This document shows, piece after piece, positions 32,149 through 41,759 of a stretch of DNA of 64,000 bases. Within the stretch, counting starts at the first letter, position 1, and each line of letters begins with the position of its first letter. The stretch spans positions 62,001 through 126,000 of the forward strand of contig JACDDS010000011.1 in the NCBI GenBank assembly GCA_013816805.1, in the 5' to 3' direction. This DNA is from Chitinophagales bacterium (GTDB taxonomy: Bacteria > Bacteroidota > Bacteroidia > Chitinophagales > UBA10324). The notes under the pieces were generated by a model that saw only the letters and a program-made list of their open reading frames with translations, did no database searches and was not told the origin of the DNA. The position numbers and the translations under genes are program-made.

Positions 32149-32249
32149 CATTTCGAATTGGTGATTGTAGAGTGCGAATAACAATAAATGATCGGGGAGT
32201 AAATTTTTTATATAAACTATGGAGGGTTAACTATAATTTAATATTTGAA

Positions 32250-32683
32250 ATGAAAGAAAAGTCAGAAGAACTTAAGCAAAGGACTAAAAATTTTGCTTTA
32301 AAAATGATTAAATTATACAGAAGCTTACCTCATGGAAAAGATTGTGATGTAATTGGATACCAGATGCTCAAATGCGCAACTTCTGTAGGAGCGAATTATA
32401 GAGCGGCATGCCGTGCACGATCTAATGCGACTTTATATCAAAAATTACATTTGTTGAAGAAGAAGCCGATGAATGTGGTTACTGGCTGGAATTAATTATT
32501 GAATCGGGATTAATGCAGAGAGAGAAAGTAATGAATTTACTTAATGAATCAAACGAACTGACTGCTATTTTTACTGCTTCGGGAAAAACAGCAAAAATGA
32601 AGAACAATATACAACCAGTAACCGGAAAGCAGCTGATTAAATCCACAATTCAAACTCCGCAATCCGCAATAAAAAATGTTTAG
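32250..32683 (+). pseudogene. Four-helix-bundle protein (23S rRNA intervening-sequence type), frameshifted
   Basis: From ATG 32250 the frame reads MKEKSEELKQRTKNFALKMI, then DVIGYQMLKCATSVGANYRA and ACRARSNA, the start of the TIGR02436/IVP four-helix-bundle family. The frame breaks at 32429/32430. One frame over, it continues as DFISKITFVEEEADECGYWL and EADECGYWLELIIESG and runs to a stop at 32683. One missing G after GCG at 32429 explains the break, and the restored protein would be about 144 residues. Its end overlaps the nuoH start by 8 bp. Function of the family is unknown. A GTG at 32172 in the same frame is too far upstream to fit. Confidence 0.8.
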
Positions 32684-35916: not shown

Positions 35917-37092
35917 ATGATGTATAAAAATAAATCAGTACTTACTTTTTTTTATTTCCTGCTGATAGCCCAGTACTGCTTTTCGCAGGACATGAAATTC
36001 ATTCCCTACCGCTTTAAAGATCTGTGGGGATTTTCCGATACGAAGGGGAACGTAATACTTCCCACACGGTATCAGCAAGCGAATCCATTCAGTGAAGGCT
36101 ATGCTGTTATAGAATCGGACAATCATTTTTCATTTATTGATGATGATGGAGATTTAAAAATGCCCTTTAAGTATGATTACATAAGCAATTTCCATAATAA
36201 TGTTGCAGTGGTTTCCTTGGCTGAAAAGTGGAAAGTGATTGATACCCGCGCCCATGTGCTTACGAAGAATGACTATGATGCTATAGGCGAATTTTCAAAT
36301 GGACTGGCGCAGGTAAAAGCCGCAAATCAGTATGGATTTATTAATGACAAAGGTGATATTGTGGTAAAGCCACAATTCGATAATGTGCTTCCATTTTCCG
36401 AAAATATGGCAGTAGTTCAATCAGGCAACCTGTTTGGGTTTGTGAATCAGAAAGGCTTTATTGTTATACCGGTTCAATATGAAGGCGCAGCATCTTTTCA
36501 TGATGGTTTGGCGCTGGTGAAAAAAGATTCACTGGTAGGGTTTATAGATAAATCAAATAATGCAGTAATCCCGTTCCAATATAAAAGCGCAAATATTTTT
36601 TCAGAAGGGCTGGCACCTGTAATGAAAGATGGAAAAGTCGGTTTCATAAATACAAAAGGCGATGTGGAAATTCCAATTCAATATGAAAATGCAAATCCTT
36701 TCAGGGAAGGATTTGCCTTAGTGCAGAAAAATGGTTTGCTTGGTTACATTGATAAAAAAGGACATGAAATAATTGCCCCCGAATTTAATATCGCTGATGA
36801 TTTTCATGAAGGGTTCGCTTTAGTGAAAGACAGCAGCTGGAAATTTGTTAATGCCGAAGGAGAAAAATTGATGCTCGATATTCACTACCAGGAAGTAAAA
36901 GATTTTAGCAATGGGCTTGCACGGGTTAAAGGGAACGAAGTGTGGGGATATGTGAATCAATCAGGAAATGAAATAATCGAGCGGAAATATGAAGACGCCC
37001 AGGATTTTAATAACGGATATGCACTTGTTAAGCTCAATGGCAAATGGGGATATATAGATAAAACCGGAAAGGAATTTTTTAAAGAAAAGTAA
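35917..37092 (+). CDS. WG-repeat protein, exported
   Basis: The 391-residue protein has a signal peptide (cleavage near CFSQD) and then consists almost wholly of about eleven WG repeats of roughly 33 residues. Each contains a W/Y/F-G-F/Y-I/V-D/N core followed by KG and a PF-like turn (for example YGFINDKGDIVV, LGYIDKKGHEI, WGYVNQSGNEI, WGYIDKTGKEF). Such repeats form beta-rich scaffolds, often at the cell surface in Bacteroidota, with no known activity. It lies 17 bp after the GT39-type gene, probably co-transcribed, so a role linked to that glycosyltransferase is possible but unproven. Confidence 0.9.
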   Translation: MMYKNKSVLTFFYFLLIAQYCFSQDMKFIPYRFKDLWGFSDTKGNVILPTRYQQANPFSEGYAVIESDNHFSFIDDDGDLKMPFKYDYISNFHNNVAVVSLAEKWKVIDTRAHVLTKNDYDAIGEFSNGLAQVKAANQYGFINDKGDIVVKPQFDNVLPFSENMAVVQSGNLFGFVNQKGFIVIPVQYEGAASFHDGLALVKKDSLVGFIDKSNNAVIPFQYKSANIFSEGLAPVMKDGKVGFINTKGDVEIPIQYENANPFREGFALVQKNGLLGYIDKKGHEIIAPEFNIADDFHEGFALVKDSSWKFVNAEGEKLMLDIHYQEVKDFSNGLARVKGNEVWGYVNQSGNEIIERKYEDAQDFNNGYALVKLNGKWGYIDKTGKEFFKEK

Positions 37093-37127: not shown

Positions 37128-37949
37128 TTATATGCTTAAACTCACCTCTTCTTTTAACCTGTTCTTGATCACCATCAACTCAGTTTCCATCTTCTCTACC
37201 AATGCCAGCAATTCGTCCTTACCTCTTAGTTGTTCCGGAATTTCACTACTGATGTAGTTGCAAAATTTCCATACTTCTTTTACGTCATTGATATCAATTT
37301 CATACGGTTGGTAAGCTGTATTAAGTGAATGAAGCTCTAATTTTTTCTTTCGGCTAATGAGGTTATGAGCTATTTTGAAAACAATTCCTTCATCCTGAGT
37401 TAATAAAATACAAGCATCGCCATTTTTAATGTCGTTCCAGTTTTCAATGTATTCACCGATCACCCAGCTCTTGTCAGGAATGGGCAGCATAGAATCTCCA
37501 TCAATCTGGAACATGCGGTATTTACGATCATCGAAAAGAATGGGCAATTGGAAAGTCGAAAGTTTTTTAATAAAGTCGGGATCGGCATATCCATTCTTAT
37601 AACCTGCTTTTGCTTTTAACGGCACCGCTTCAATATTTTCTTTGTTCCCGCTATCTACAGTAGTGGCAAGCACCCGCAGCTTGCTGCCTGTTATATACAC
37701 ATCATGCCCCTTTTCCAATTCTGATAATTGAAAGCCGGACAGCTTGCTGAGGTCCATCTTTATGAGGGTATCCACGGAGACCTTAAAATATTTTGAAAAG
37801 CCTACGAGTGCCTGGAGTGTGGGATTTTTTACGCTTCCGTTTTCATAGCTGTTTAATGTAGAGCGGCTCATGTTTAATTCGCGTGCTACCATATCCTGGG
37901 TTTTGCTTCGTCTTGTGCGAAGAAGCCTGATATTATTGCTGAAGATCAT
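37128..37949 (-). CDS. XRE/S24 (LexA/CI-like) self-cleaving-type transcriptional regulator
   Basis: This regulator has an N-terminal HTH_3 domain (about residues 6-62; SKTQDMVARELNMSRSTLNS) and a C-terminal S24 peptidase-like domain. The LexA-type catalytic dyad is visible as S153 in IDGDSMLPI and K192 in GIVFKIAHN. An Ala-Gly bond at A115-G116 in LKAKAGYKNG is where LexA/CI-type proteins cleave themselves. It is therefore a plausible DNA-damage-responsive repressor. Its ATG overlaps the stop codon of the DnaE-type gene (ATGA, 37946-37949), so it is translated with that polymerase and probably controls it. Confidence 0.9.
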   Translation of the reverse strand: MIFSNNIRLLRTRRSKTQDMVARELNMSRSTLNSYENGSVKNPTLQALVGFSKYFKVSVDTLIKMDLSKLSGFQLSELEKGHDVYITGSKLRVLATTVDSGNKENIEAVPLKAKAGYKNGYADPDFIKKLSTFQLPILFDDRKYRMFQIDGDSMLPIPDKSWVIGEYIENWNDIKNGDACILLTQDEGIVFKIAHNLISRKKKLELHSLNTAYQPYEIDINDVKEVWKFCNYISSEIPEQLRGKDELLALVEKMETELMVIKNRLKEEVSLSI

Positions 37950-40900
37950 GTCAACTGTTTTTGAATGTTAATTACCTGGTGAAAAGTTGGACCCGGGGCA
38001 CGAGAAGCAAATTTAAATTCACGTACCATATCACACTTTGAAAGCCCGGACTCACGCCGCAGCAATACTATGCTGTTAACCAGGAAGTGCGCCGTGTAGT
38101 CGATTAAATAAAATTCTGAAGTGGCACGGCTGAATTTTTCCTTATCCAACCCTTTTGCAATGGCAAGGTGCGGATGGAAGTGATTTTTTACCGCAAGCTT
38201 CAGTTCCTGTTTTAACTTTTTGCTGACCTCTGAAACTTCTTCCGGGTTAACAATTTTATTGAAGATTGTATGAGGTTTAAAATGGTCGAAGCCATCCAGC
38301 TTTAAATGAAAGGGCTCGCATCTTTCGCTCACTTTCGCAATGGCACGAACCATTTCGGGTTCCATGGTTTCACTCTGAAGAAAGTTACAAAGTATAATAT
38401 CGGGTTTGGAAGCAATGGCCTGGTAATGATCAAACTGACGGTGAAATCTTTTCTTCAGGGATTCAATCTCCTGCCTGATGTGCGGAGGCGGGGCAATTAC
38501 CAGCAGGTATTCATATTGTTTGGAAGAGGGAACTACTACCGGCATGGCTATTGGATCGGGCTTTGAACGTGCAATCGACTCTGCATCATTTTCATACATC
38601 ACATAATCGAGCTTTTGCATTTCGACTACATCGATGCTGTAAAATCCAAAGTCTTCCACCACCTTTCCTTTTATCCAATAACAACCCTTTCCCCGAAAGG
38701 GAAATCTTTTTGTGATATCGGGAAAATGAGTAGTGTCGAAGAAGAACCCGTCTTTATCAAGGAAGGTACCGAACATCATTACTTCACCCTTAATGGTGGT
38801 TGTGGGCTTATAAGTAACATAGTACCCCATTATTTCTACTGCCCTTCCATGATTGATTTTCAACCTGGCAGCCACCAATTCACTTTGCAGGGGCTGTTTT
38901 ATAAGTGTGAATGGCGGGCAGAGAGGAAAACCAAGGATTTCTATTTCATCCCTTGCATCTTCAAAAGGATCATTATATAATTCAGGCAATAAAAAATTCT
39001 TATATCCATTATCAAATAATTCCTTTCGTGCTGTAGATCTCTTTTTACTTCCTATTACTGTATAAATATCCCACAGTAATTGTTTTTTTGTTCTTCCTGT
39101 AAAGCTAAATGCACCAACCCTGATAAGGAGCCGAAGCTGCTCTGCTGCAATAGAAACACGGTTCATGAAATCAACTAAATCTTTAAAGCCTCCATACGTT
39201 TTTCGTTCTTTCAAAATGGCTTCCACTGTTTTTTCTTCCAGCTCTGCCATATGTGTAAATCCTAAAAAAATATCTTTACCATACACCGTTGTAACGCAGT
39301 CACTTTTATTAATGTCGGGTGCATGAATGGCGGCACCTGACATGCGCGCCTCGTGAACGTAATATTCTGTACGGTAAAATCCGCCAAAGTTGTTAATCAC
39401 ACCTACCATAAATTCGATGGGATAATAGGCTTTCAGAAACATGCTTTGGTAGCTTTCCACAGCAAAAGACGCGGAATGCCCTTTAGCAAAGGCATAGCCT
39501 CCAAAGCTTTCAATTTCGCGCCATACTTCATTCGTTAATGCGTCAGGATAGTTTTCCTTCTTACAGTTTGTGAAAAACGTCTGCCTGATCTTTTGAAACT
39601 CCGCACGGCCCCGGTATTTTCCACTCATTCCCCTTCGCAGCATATCCGCCTCGCCCAGAGTAAGCTTTGCAAAATAGTGGGCTACTTTAATCACATCTTC
39701 CTGGTACACCATTACTCCAAAAGTGTCCGGCATTATTTTCCAAAGCTCGGGGATAGATTCTTTCTGGCCGTGAAGCGGATCATGAAAGCGGCGGATATAT
39801 TCGCGCATCATACCGCTGCGGGCCACACCGGGCCGTATGATAGAGCTTGCGGCTACAAGATCCAGGTAAGTCTTTGCACATAGCTTTGCAAGCAATCCCC
39901 GCATAGCCGGAGATTCTACGTAAAAGCAGCCGATCAGTTTTGCATTGGTAAGGTGCCACTCCACTTTCTTATCTTCTTTAAACCGTTTTACATCGTGGAT
40001 ATCAATTTCTTCATTCCTGTTTTTTTTAATGATCTCTACTGCTTCCTTTATATGACCCAAGCCACGCTGACTGAGAATATCAAACTTTGCAAAGCCCACG
40101 TCTTCCGCCTCCAGCATGCTGAACTGAGCGAGGGGAAATCCTTTAGGTGGATTGCTTAATGCAGTATAATAGGTGATCGGTTTATCTGAAATCAAAATGC
40201 CCCCTGCATGAATGCTGAGGTGGTTGGGAAAATCATGGATGCCCCGGCTGTATTGATAGATGAGCCTGATGATGTCATCGTCGGTTTCAGGAAACTCTTG
40301 CGGATCAAGAAGGCCATCAATCTGTGCTTTTGGCAAGCCAAATACCTTTCCCAATTCACGCACTACAGCATTGGCCTGAAAGGTACTGTAGGTTCCTAAA
40401 AGCGCCGTATGGTTTTCCCCGTATTTTTTGAAGATGTATTTAATAATCTCATCACGGTCTTTCCAGGAAAAATCTATATCAAAATCCGGAGGGTTAATGC
40501 GTGATGGGTTAATAAACCGCTCGAAATAAAGATCAAGGTCAATAGGATCTACATCCGTTATTTTAAGTAAATAGGCAACTATTGAATTGGCGCCACTGCC
40601 TCTTCCCACATAAAAAAAATTCCGTAAGCGCGCGTGCTTTACAATATCCCAGTTGATTAAAAAGTAAGAGGTAAACTGCTTTTCCTTAATCAGGTCAATT
40701 TCTTTTTTAAACCGCTCGCGGATCTTTTCATTAGCATTGGGATAGCGGTACTGCATGGTCTCTTCACACTCATTAAGTAATAATTCCTCATCACTCTTTT
40801 CGCTTCCCGTAAAAAACTTTTTGTTTTTATATTGCTCAAACTGAAAATCAATCACGTCGCATTTCAGGAGTAATTCCTCTGTGTTTCGGATGATCACCGG

Positions 40901-41590
40901 CCAGGAAGAAAATATTTTTTTTAACTCTTCTTCCGGAACCATTATTTCATCCGGTGCTGCCTGTTCATTTAGCGGAAGCTTGCTCAGTAATGTATTGTTA
41001 TCGATAGCGCGTAAAAGGCGGTGAATATTAAAATCTGATTTATTCCTGAATGTAACAGGGGCGAGGATCACCAACCTATCAGGTTGGTTTTTCCAGGGTG
41101 AAAAAGGAAGGCGGGTAAGGTCGCCCGGTTTAATACCTATAAATTCATTTTCTTTCAGGGGCAAGCGTGAAGCGGACAAATCTCCTCCATCACGCCGTGG
41201 CTGCGCTATTTGCAATGATGCAAAAGGATAGATTACAAATGCATTCTCAAGCGCAGGTGCACGGGCGGGAATTATTGCTTCCCTGCCGGTTAATCCGGGT
41301 TCGGCTTCCTGCAGGCACTTAGAAAGAAACTGGTTTAATTCATGAAAACCAGTATGGTTTTTTGCAATGCCAACAAAATGCTGCTGCATTCCATTTCTGA
41401 AGTCAATGCCTGCTACAGGTGTTACAGGATAGTTTTTCGCATGACGATGGAAATCTATAATGGCGGACGTATTATTAATGTCGGTCAACACGAGCTTTTG
41501 CACGCCTTTCGCAGCGGCCTCCTTTAGCAAAGCCTCAGGACTCATGGTTCCGAACTTGAAGCTGTAATAGGTATGGCAGTTGAAAAACAT
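37946..41590 (-). CDS. dnaE: DnaE-type DNA polymerase III alpha fused to a 2'-5' RNA ligase-like (2H) domain
   Basis: This is a 1214-residue C-family polymerase, probably the second, translesion-type DnaE of the genome. An N-terminal PHP domain (about 1-110) lacks key metal ligands: it has NCHTYYS in place of HxHSxYS, and LTDINN in place of TDHG. The polymerase core has GRGSGANSIVAYLLKITD near 329, the PDFDIDF aspartates D369, D371 and D373, and the third aspartate D504 in AKFDIL. FGGYAFAKGHSASFA is near 696, and an OB-like domain is near 915-995. Beyond residue 1024 comes an extra domain (YEYLLVIAPPPHIRQEIESL) with histidines in FKPHTIF (H1107) and HPHLAIA (H1141), the two-histidine pattern of 2H phosphoesterases. 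It precedes the S24 regulator with an ATGA overlap. Confidence 0.88.
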   Translation of the reverse strand: MFFNCHTYYSFKFGTMSPEALLKEAAAKGVQKLVLTDINNTSAIIDFHRHAKNYPVTPVAGIDFRNGMQQHFVGIAKNHTGFHELNQFLSKCLQEAEPGLTGREAIIPARAPALENAFVIYPFASLQIAQPRRDGGDLSASRLPLKENEFIGIKPGDLTRLPFSPWKNQPDRLVILAPVTFRNKSDFNIHRLLRAIDNNTLLSKLPLNEQAAPDEIMVPEEELKKIFSSWPVIIRNTEELLLKCDVIDFQFEQYKNKKFFTGSEKSDEELLLNECEETMQYRYPNANEKIRERFKKEIDLIKEKQFTSYFLINWDIVKHARLRNFFYVGRGSGANSIVAYLLKITDVDPIDLDLYFERFINPSRINPPDFDIDFSWKDRDEIIKYIFKKYGENHTALLGTYSTFQANAVVRELGKVFGLPKAQIDGLLDPQEFPETDDDIIRLIYQYSRGIHDFPNHLSIHAGGILISDKPITYYTALSNPPKGFPLAQFSMLEAEDVGFAKFDILSQRGLGHIKEAVEIIKKNRNEEIDIHDVKRFKEDKKVEWHLTNAKLIGCFYVESPAMRGLLAKLCAKTYLDLVAASSIIRPGVARSGMMREYIRRFHDPLHGQKESIPELWKIMPDTFGVMVYQEDVIKVAHYFAKLTLGEADMLRRGMSGKYRGRAEFQKIRQTFFTNCKKENYPDALTNEVWREIESFGGYAFAKGHSASFAVESYQSMFLKAYYPIEFMVGVINNFGGFYRTEYYVHEARMSGAAIHAPDINKSDCVTTVYGKDIFLGFTHMAELEEKTVEAILKERKTYGGFKDLVDFMNRVSIAAEQLRLLIRVGAFSFTGRTKKQLLWDIYTVIGSKKRSTARKELFDNGYKNFLLPELYNDPFEDARDEIEILGFPLCPPFTLIKQPLQSELVAARLKINHGRAVEIMGYYVTYKPTTTIKGEVMMFGTFLDKDGFFFDTTHFPDITKRFPFRGKGCYWIKGKVVEDFGFYSIDVVEMQKLDYVMYENDAESIARSKPDPIAMPVVVPSSKQYEYLLVIAPPPHIRQEIESLKKRFHRQFDHYQAIASKPDIILCNFLQSETMEPEMVRAIAKVSERCEPFHLKLDGFDHFKPHTIFNKIVNPEEVSEVSKKLKQELKLAVKNHFHPHLAIAKGLDKEKFSRATSEFYLIDYTAHFLVNSIVLLRRESGLSKCDMVREFKFASRAPGPTFHQVINIQKQLT

Positions 41591-41632
41591 GATAGGATTA
41601 GTACTTGCGACAGTGTCTTGCCGGATGATTAC

Positions 41633-41659
41633 ATTACAATCTTTATTACAGATTGCAAT
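41633..41659 (-). promoter_or_regulatory. Inverted repeat, possible operator of the dnaE/S24 operon
   Basis: ATTACAATCT (41633-41642) and AGATTGCAAT (41650-41659) form a 10-bp inverted repeat with one mismatch and a 7-nt spacer. It lies 43-69 bp upstream of the dnaE start, where a repressor of the CI/LexA type would bind. The link to the S24 regulator is inference from position and symmetry. Confidence 0.45.
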
Positions 41660-41759
41660 TTAATCATTATTCTAAAACTAACAATGCAGGGTGATATAAA
41701 TAAGGCAACACTTCATCACTGCAAAAGGTATCACTGCAAAATTATAATCAATATAAAAG

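Follow-up and report, generated by a model that had tools for sequence, protein, structure and literature searches.

The systems closest to the locus analysed here are the non-canonical LexA repressors of Bacteroidetes, a polymerase module predicted for the same group, and the ImuA-ImuB-DnaE2 mutasome. According to PMC8565304, the operators of non-canonical LexA proteins have the form CTAA-N5-TTAG or GGA-N5-TCC, diverged operators have been reported in the family, and genes of the SplB/COG1533 type are conserved members of the regulon. The polymerase module, DnaE2B-PolY-RecA, is predicted in PMC12926913 and can be compared with the PolY2-DnaE2 pair of PMC6511836; both sources describe a RecA-NT-like tail for other PolYs. 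The regulator class dealt with below is already known, and the polymerase module is known as a prediction. Here, both are found in a rearranged form, with the regulator placed last in the operon, PolY detached, and the operator changed from CTAA-N5-TTAG together with the recognition helix.

The window, i.e., the whole stretch of 64 kb under study (C11:62001-126000), carries a second DnaE and a LexA-like regulator in one operon. These genes very likely belong to the SOS mutagenesis system of a bacterium of the Bacteroidia, in which a module of the DnaE2B-PolY-RecA type is controlled by a Bacteroidetes non-canonical LexA and has been split and rearranged. The coding features of the operon are the following:

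37946..41590, minus strand: DnaE2-type polymerase with a C-terminal 2H domain, 1214 aa (open reading frame and Pfam).
38045..38491, minus strand: 2H (2_5_RNA_ligase2) domain of DnaE2, residues 1034-1182, E 4.5e-16, motifs DII and HLA (Pfam, alignment).
37946..37949, minus strand: ATGA overlap of the DnaE2 stop (TGA) with the regulator start (ATG), read from the sequence.
37128..37949, minus strand: S24 regulator gene of non-canonical LexA type, XRE/CI-type HTH plus S24 peptidase, 273 aa (open reading frame and Pfam).
37767..37931, minus strand: HTH_3 domain of the regulator, residues 7-61, with the recognition-helix segment NSYEN at residues 33-37 (Pfam, alignment).
37602..37607, minus strand: Ala115-Gly116, putative self-cleavage bond of the regulator (invariant in 41/41).
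37491..37493, minus strand: Ser153, putative S24 nucleophile of the regulator (invariant in 41/41).
37374..37376, minus strand: Lys192, putative S24 general base of the regulator (invariant in 41/41).

The regulator matches HTH_3 (PF01381; residues 7-61, E 4.3e-12) and Peptidase_S24 (PF00717; residues 133-222, E 7.1e-8). This combination of a CI-type HTH with an S24 domain, an Ala-Gly bond and a Ser-Lys dyad is shared with the Bacteroidetes non-canonical LexA of PMC8565304. Canonical LexA is different in this respect, the winged-HTH domain PF01726 being absent among the Pfam matches of the window's regulator, whose N-terminus is recognised by HTH_3-type families only. Ala115, Gly116, Ser153 and Lys192 are found at the residue numbers given in a preliminary description of this DNA and are invariant in all 41 distinct regulator sequences, which were collected by similarity to the window's regulator. 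The overlap of the regulator start with the polymerase stop that had been reported there is likewise borne out, since the minus strand reads ATGA at 37946-37949, and we infer from it that DnaE2 and the regulator are translationally coupled. A PDB sequence search with the regulator returned small HTH repressors only, and single-sequence structure prediction was unusable (mean pLDDT of 35.5 for the 2H domain and 37.1 for the regulator). Convergent with the regulator, at 35917-37092, lies a gene for a WG-repeat protein with 10 matched stretches.

The window's DnaE2 contains the Pfam domains PHP, DNA_pol3_alpha, finger and HhH, followed by 2_5_RNA_ligase2 (2H), and scores below the cut-offs of the NCBIfam equivalog models. 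The other DnaE of the genome, located on contig C1 and presumably the main one, is 33% identical to it over the matched part. Elsewhere in the window, a small 107-aa open reading frame (32172-32495) sits between two genes that, judged by eye, resemble those for subunits of respiratory complex I.

The preliminary description had seen no Y-family polymerase and had regarded the operon as a reduced version of error-prone DnaE cassettes. The former holds inside the 64-kb window but not for the genome (3.57 Mb, estimated to be 100% complete), in which a Pfam IMS search finds a single strong Y-family gene, PolY (C11:14265-15488), which shares its contig with the window and lies about 84 kb from the regulator. 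PolY retains DLD and DE motifs, which we take to be its catalytic motifs, and is apparently active to judge by them. Its C-terminal tail is similar to the N-terminus of the RecA encoded in this genome, with a score equalled by 4 of 2000 shuffles. Moreover, it is 59-74% identical to the DnaE2-adjoining PolYs of other families and 82-84% identical to the PolYs of the relatives G296, G394 and G412. An ImuB identity for this Y-family protein was considered and rejected, as the only strong Y-family gene keeps its acidic motifs. Like the ImuA-ImuB-DnaE2 mutasome, the system of this genome combines a second DnaE with a Y-family protein in a cassette of the damage type, but the Y-family protein retains its catalytic motifs, and a search with the RecA-family model PF00154 finds one protein only, RecA. 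The likeness to the DnaE2B-PolY-RecA module of PMC12926913 and PMC6511836 lies in a second DnaE, here a putative DnaE2B, together with an apparently active PolY with a RecA-NT-like tail. In contrast to the module of PMC12926913, about 84 kb separate PolY from DnaE2, and the window's DnaE2 bears a degenerate C-terminal 2H domain. A UmuD-like gene is also present in the genome (C3:22561-22980) and, with PolY as the only strong Y-family gene, appears to have no umuC partner.

It could be argued that the regulator and DnaE form a reduced two-gene operon, in which the regulator controls only a DnaE working without a Y-family partner. The ATGA overlap and the lack of a Y-family gene within the 64-kb window are in line with such an operon, but we consider it most improbable given that the genome does contain a PolY of the cassette type, preceded by the tandem operator that also precedes DnaE2 (see below), a finding that likewise speaks against a reduced version, and that in G296, the closest arrangement among relatives, the three genes directly follow one another.

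Gene arrangements were compared in neighbourhoods from 33 other genomes, which were selected for having hits and include several short contigs. Linkage of the regulator with PolY and/or DnaE2 is seen in 20 of these 33, and PolY and DnaE2 lie within one stretch in 24/33. The commonest layout, a regulator divergent from PolY-DnaE2, occurs in the window's own family as well (G406). Two further members of this family are arranged differently: in G296, PolY, DnaE2-2H and the regulator follow each other in one direction, with the operator present before PolY only, while in G394 PolY and DnaE2-2H are together and the regulator is some 42 kb off. The conserved pairing envisaged in the preliminary description is seen as linkage of the regulator to PolY and/or DnaE2, but the position directly downstream of DnaE2 recurs only in G296. 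G400 was examined as a possible further instance of a regulator downstream of DnaE2 but was discarded, since no DnaE2 tail could be recognised by eye in the 235 bases that remain before the contig ends. In the window's genome, PolY is the detached part of the cassette. The DnaE2-2H frame of G394 (L098 5321-9373), 1350 aa long, matches the core of the window's DnaE2 in split form, which suggests that it contains inserted extra sequence. G326 and G315, of the same family, keep PolY, with a tandem operator that has 2 mismatches in G326 and 3 in G315; a regulator like that of the window was not found in them at E 1e-3, nor a DnaE2 at E 1e-150, and they may represent a still smaller version of the system.

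The operator was approached through the published motifs. CTAA-N5-TTAG, GGA-N5-TCC and TTAC-N5-GTAA were not found upstream of the window's DnaE2, of its regulator or of PolY, which led to a search that yielded a candidate operator, the 15-bp palindrome GATTG-N5-CAATC (e.g., GATTGTAATACAATC), occurring in pairs 24 bp apart. The pair before DnaE2, identified by pattern search, consists of:

41651..41665, minus strand: distal operator-like palindrome, GATTAAATTGCAATC, at -75 to -61 from the DnaE2 start.
41627..41641, minus strand: proximal operator-like palindrome, GATTGTAATGTAATC, at -51 to -37 from the DnaE2 start, 24 bp from the distal one.

In the window's genome the pairs are thus positioned at -75/-51 before DnaE2 and at -39/-15 before PolY, and the latter positions are also those of the pair before PolY in G296 and G394. 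Pairs 23-24 bp apart, some with 2 mismatches, precede DnaE2 in G360, G382, G388, G135 and G195, and the best sites before PolY in genus g159 carry 2 to 3 mismatches. Inside DnaE2, no operator site of a separate regulator promoter was found, the best candidate having 3 mismatches and being matched by 215 of 300 shuffles.

The whole genome was searched with the tandem pattern GATT-N7-AATC-N9-GATT-N7-AATC, allowing up to 3 mismatches and using the reversed pattern as control. The pattern occurs at 41 places (two perfect, one with 1 mismatch, one with 2 and 37 with 3), against 26 in all for the control, and the weak copies are noise. However, the two perfect copies in 3.57 Mb are exactly those of the PolY and DnaE2-regulator promoters, with 0.003 perfect and 0.14 one-mismatch copies expected at the window's base composition; the count is partly circular for these two promoters, from which the pattern was in part derived. 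Independent, out-of-sample support therefore comes from a radical SAM gene and from the PolY of G326. The one-mismatch copy, third-best in the genome, overlaps the start of a radical SAM gene of the PA0069 family (494 bits against a cut-off of 360), which is of the SplB/COG1533 type, so that the three best tandem sites of the genome belong to PolY, DnaE2-regulator and an SplB-type gene. In a scan of 16 genomes of the family (up to 2 mismatches), tandem copies were also found before the PolY of G326 and before the detached regulator of G394. The single palindrome is insufficiently specific in this genome: with at most 1 mismatch it occurs at 126 places, compared with 31 for the reversed pattern, and among its 5 perfect copies only that of PolY lies at a DNA-repair gene, as read by eye from the neighbours. 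In the window's genome, recA carries no tandem operator and the umuD-like gene no operator, its best site having 2 mismatches. A one-mismatch tandem operator is also present in G296:C2 (L209 4053-4091), before a 130-aa open reading frame of unknown function.

Compared with the operators of the non-canonical LexA described in PMC8565304, the candidate operator is similar in being palindromic with an N5 spacer and in its presence at DinB/PolY, DnaE and SplB-type genes. Unlike there, the window's operator is GATTG-N5-CAATC in tandem at 24 bp and not CTAA-N5-TTAG or GGA-N5-TCC, the recognition helix of its regulator reads NSYEN and not GAYEE/GSYEE, the regulator is the 3'-most gene of the operon that it presumably targets, and recA is without a site. 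As diverged operators have been reported in the family, we treat the operator as a variable trait and assign the regulator to non-canonical LexA as a divergent member.

The helix and the operator seem to vary together. At residues 33-37 of the 41 aligned regulators, NSYEN is found in 17 (the window's included), GAYEE/GSYEE in 16 and other sequences in 7, the segment missing in 1. An exact CTAA-N5-TTAG lies within 300 bp upstream of 14 of the 40 other regulators, and these regulators align to that of the window; 12 of the 14 have GAYEE/GSYEE, 1 is truncated and 1 (L122) has NSYEN, the last carrying both CTAA-N5-TTAG and GATTG-N5-CAATC. Conversely, all four regulators with GATTG-N5-CAATC upstream (at most 1 mismatch, 300 bp) have NSYEN. 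The association of the operator change with the recognition-helix change (NSYEN/GATTG versus GAYEE/CTAA) is suggestive and not proven, because among the 16 other NSYEN regulators 4 have a GATTG-N5-CAATC site and 12 do not.

These data also bear on the possibility that some other regulator, e.g., another XRE protein, binds the palindrome pairs and that the S24 protein regulates something else. In its favour, the operator is unlike the published motifs, recA has no site, G326 retains the operator with no detectable relative of the window's regulator, and the genome does encode a second XRE-S24 protein (C20, about 8300). The latter, however, has VADDFMKP in place of the Ser motif and is probably incapable of self-cleavage. 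Moreover, the palindrome keeps the dyad-N5-dyad form of published operators, the sites track the helix class (4/4 site-bearing regulators with NSYEN, 12/14 of those with CTAA-N5-TTAG having GAYEE/GSYEE), and the detached regulator of G394 carries the site itself. A different binder is thus improbable.

Under control by the S24 regulator, the system would function as follows. Repressor dimers would bind both palindrome pairs, probably cooperatively on adjacent sites. Cooperative binding to adjacent operator sites is known for lambda CI. Upon DNA damage, RecA filaments would prompt the repressor to cut its Ala115-Gly116 bond by means of Ser153/Lys192, whereupon joint induction of both blocks would supply PolY, DnaE2-2H and fresh repressor at the same time. 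As the repressor is the last gene of one of its own presumed target operons, it would be negatively autoregulated and the response would reset itself. PolY, held by RecA via its C-terminal tail, would insert opposite lesions and DnaE2 would extend thereafter, with the 2H domain acting non-catalytically, as a binding or docking module. From the DNA-damage-type operon of the preliminary description we retain an SOS-type LexA-like repressor co-translated with an error-prone-type DnaE, under a tandem operator common to other SOS genes, but not its reduced form without a Y-family partner.

An additional feature of the system is the 2H domain of DnaE2. It matches the 2H phosphoesterase family (PF13563) but differs from it in the loss of the HxT/S motifs, the catalytic motifs of 2H proteins, and in its fusion to a replicative-type polymerase; in the window's domain, the two motif positions read DII and HLA. 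A 2H profile search of 295 Bacteroidia genomes gave matches in 60, comprising 3 fused cases, 20 others in which neighbourhoods were examined, and 37 compared by eye and coordinates with the listed DnaE2 places only. Fused 2H domains are carried by DnaE2 in three cases (the window, G296 and G394) and by PolY in two (G166 and G249); of these fused domains only that of G249 has no Pfam match on its own, those of G166 and G394 score just under the curated cut-off, and all three were recognised through alignment. In G014 and G215, PolY and DnaE2 flank a free 2H gene, and two exact CTAA-N5-TTAG precede PolY in each. In G110, G278 and G229, umuD is accompanied by one or two 2H genes, with a umuC-type polymerase gene adjoining and an exact CTAA-N5-TTAG in the umuD-2H region, while 15 of the 20 examined non-fused neighbourhoods are not near PolY/DnaE2 or umuDC genes. 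Both HxT/S motifs are kept in 15/15 of the unlinked 2H proteins versus 2/12 of the mutasome-linked ones (G229 and one of two in G110, both umuDC-linked) and 0/5 of the fused ones, a difference for which Fisher's test gives 7.8e-6, a value that overstates the evidence as the 2H sequences are related. A tree of 27 sequences was built, in which all five fused domains fall into one cluster (UFBoot 92), the umuDC-linked ones form a group (UFBoot 97) beside them (79 for both together), and the G014/G215 pair is placed elsewhere with weak support.

From this distribution it seems that 2H was recruited to these mutasomes at least once, moved between partners and lost catalysis. Its presence on either polymerase would be expected if PolY and DnaE2 form one complex, and the window's 2H is most likely a binding or docking module of that complex and not an enzyme. 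That the polymerase carries a catalytically active 2H phosphoesterase is very improbable: the Pfam match is significant and both motifs survive in two of the umuDC-linked relatives (that of G229 and one of the pair from G110), but in no fused domain out of five. Somewhat less remote, though still rather unlikely, is a decaying passenger without function, with which the strong divergence (relatives 19-43% identical to the window's 2H domain) and the loss of the catalytic motifs would agree, but which is at odds with the open frame of the domain being intact in every one of the five fusions (three DnaE2, two PolY) and with the grouping of their 2H domains (UFBoot 92). Returning to the docking module, we tentatively propose, with slightly less than even confidence, that the Bacteroidota mutasomes, both Pol V umuDC and DnaE2-PolY, share an unrecognised SOS-controlled 2H partner, the catalytic site of which decays as 2H becomes a fixed subunit, fused to PolY or to DnaE2 depending on the lineage. 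The recurrence of 2H in these mutasomes, whether fused to DnaE2 or to PolY, free between them or beside umuDC, is apparently undescribed, and no link of 2H to these systems was found in the consulted parts of open-licence main texts, including those of PMC8565304, PMC12926913, PMC6511836 and PMC3919608.

In all, the locus suggests that an SOS mutagenesis cassette can split, with its parts about 84 kb apart and a near-identical tandem operator kept on each. It also offers a natural experiment in which a LexA-like repressor changes its operator (GAYEE/CTAA versus NSYEN/GATTG) while the dyad-N5-dyad form is kept. If 2H is indeed a shared partner of these mutasomes, the pseudo-enzyme may read a damage-related ligand, e.g., an RNA or DNA end, a cyclic phosphate or a compound of the ADP-ribose type, or may instead dock the two polymerases to each other. 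The recurrent 2H domain may be a component of translesion synthesis in bacteria that has so far escaped notice.
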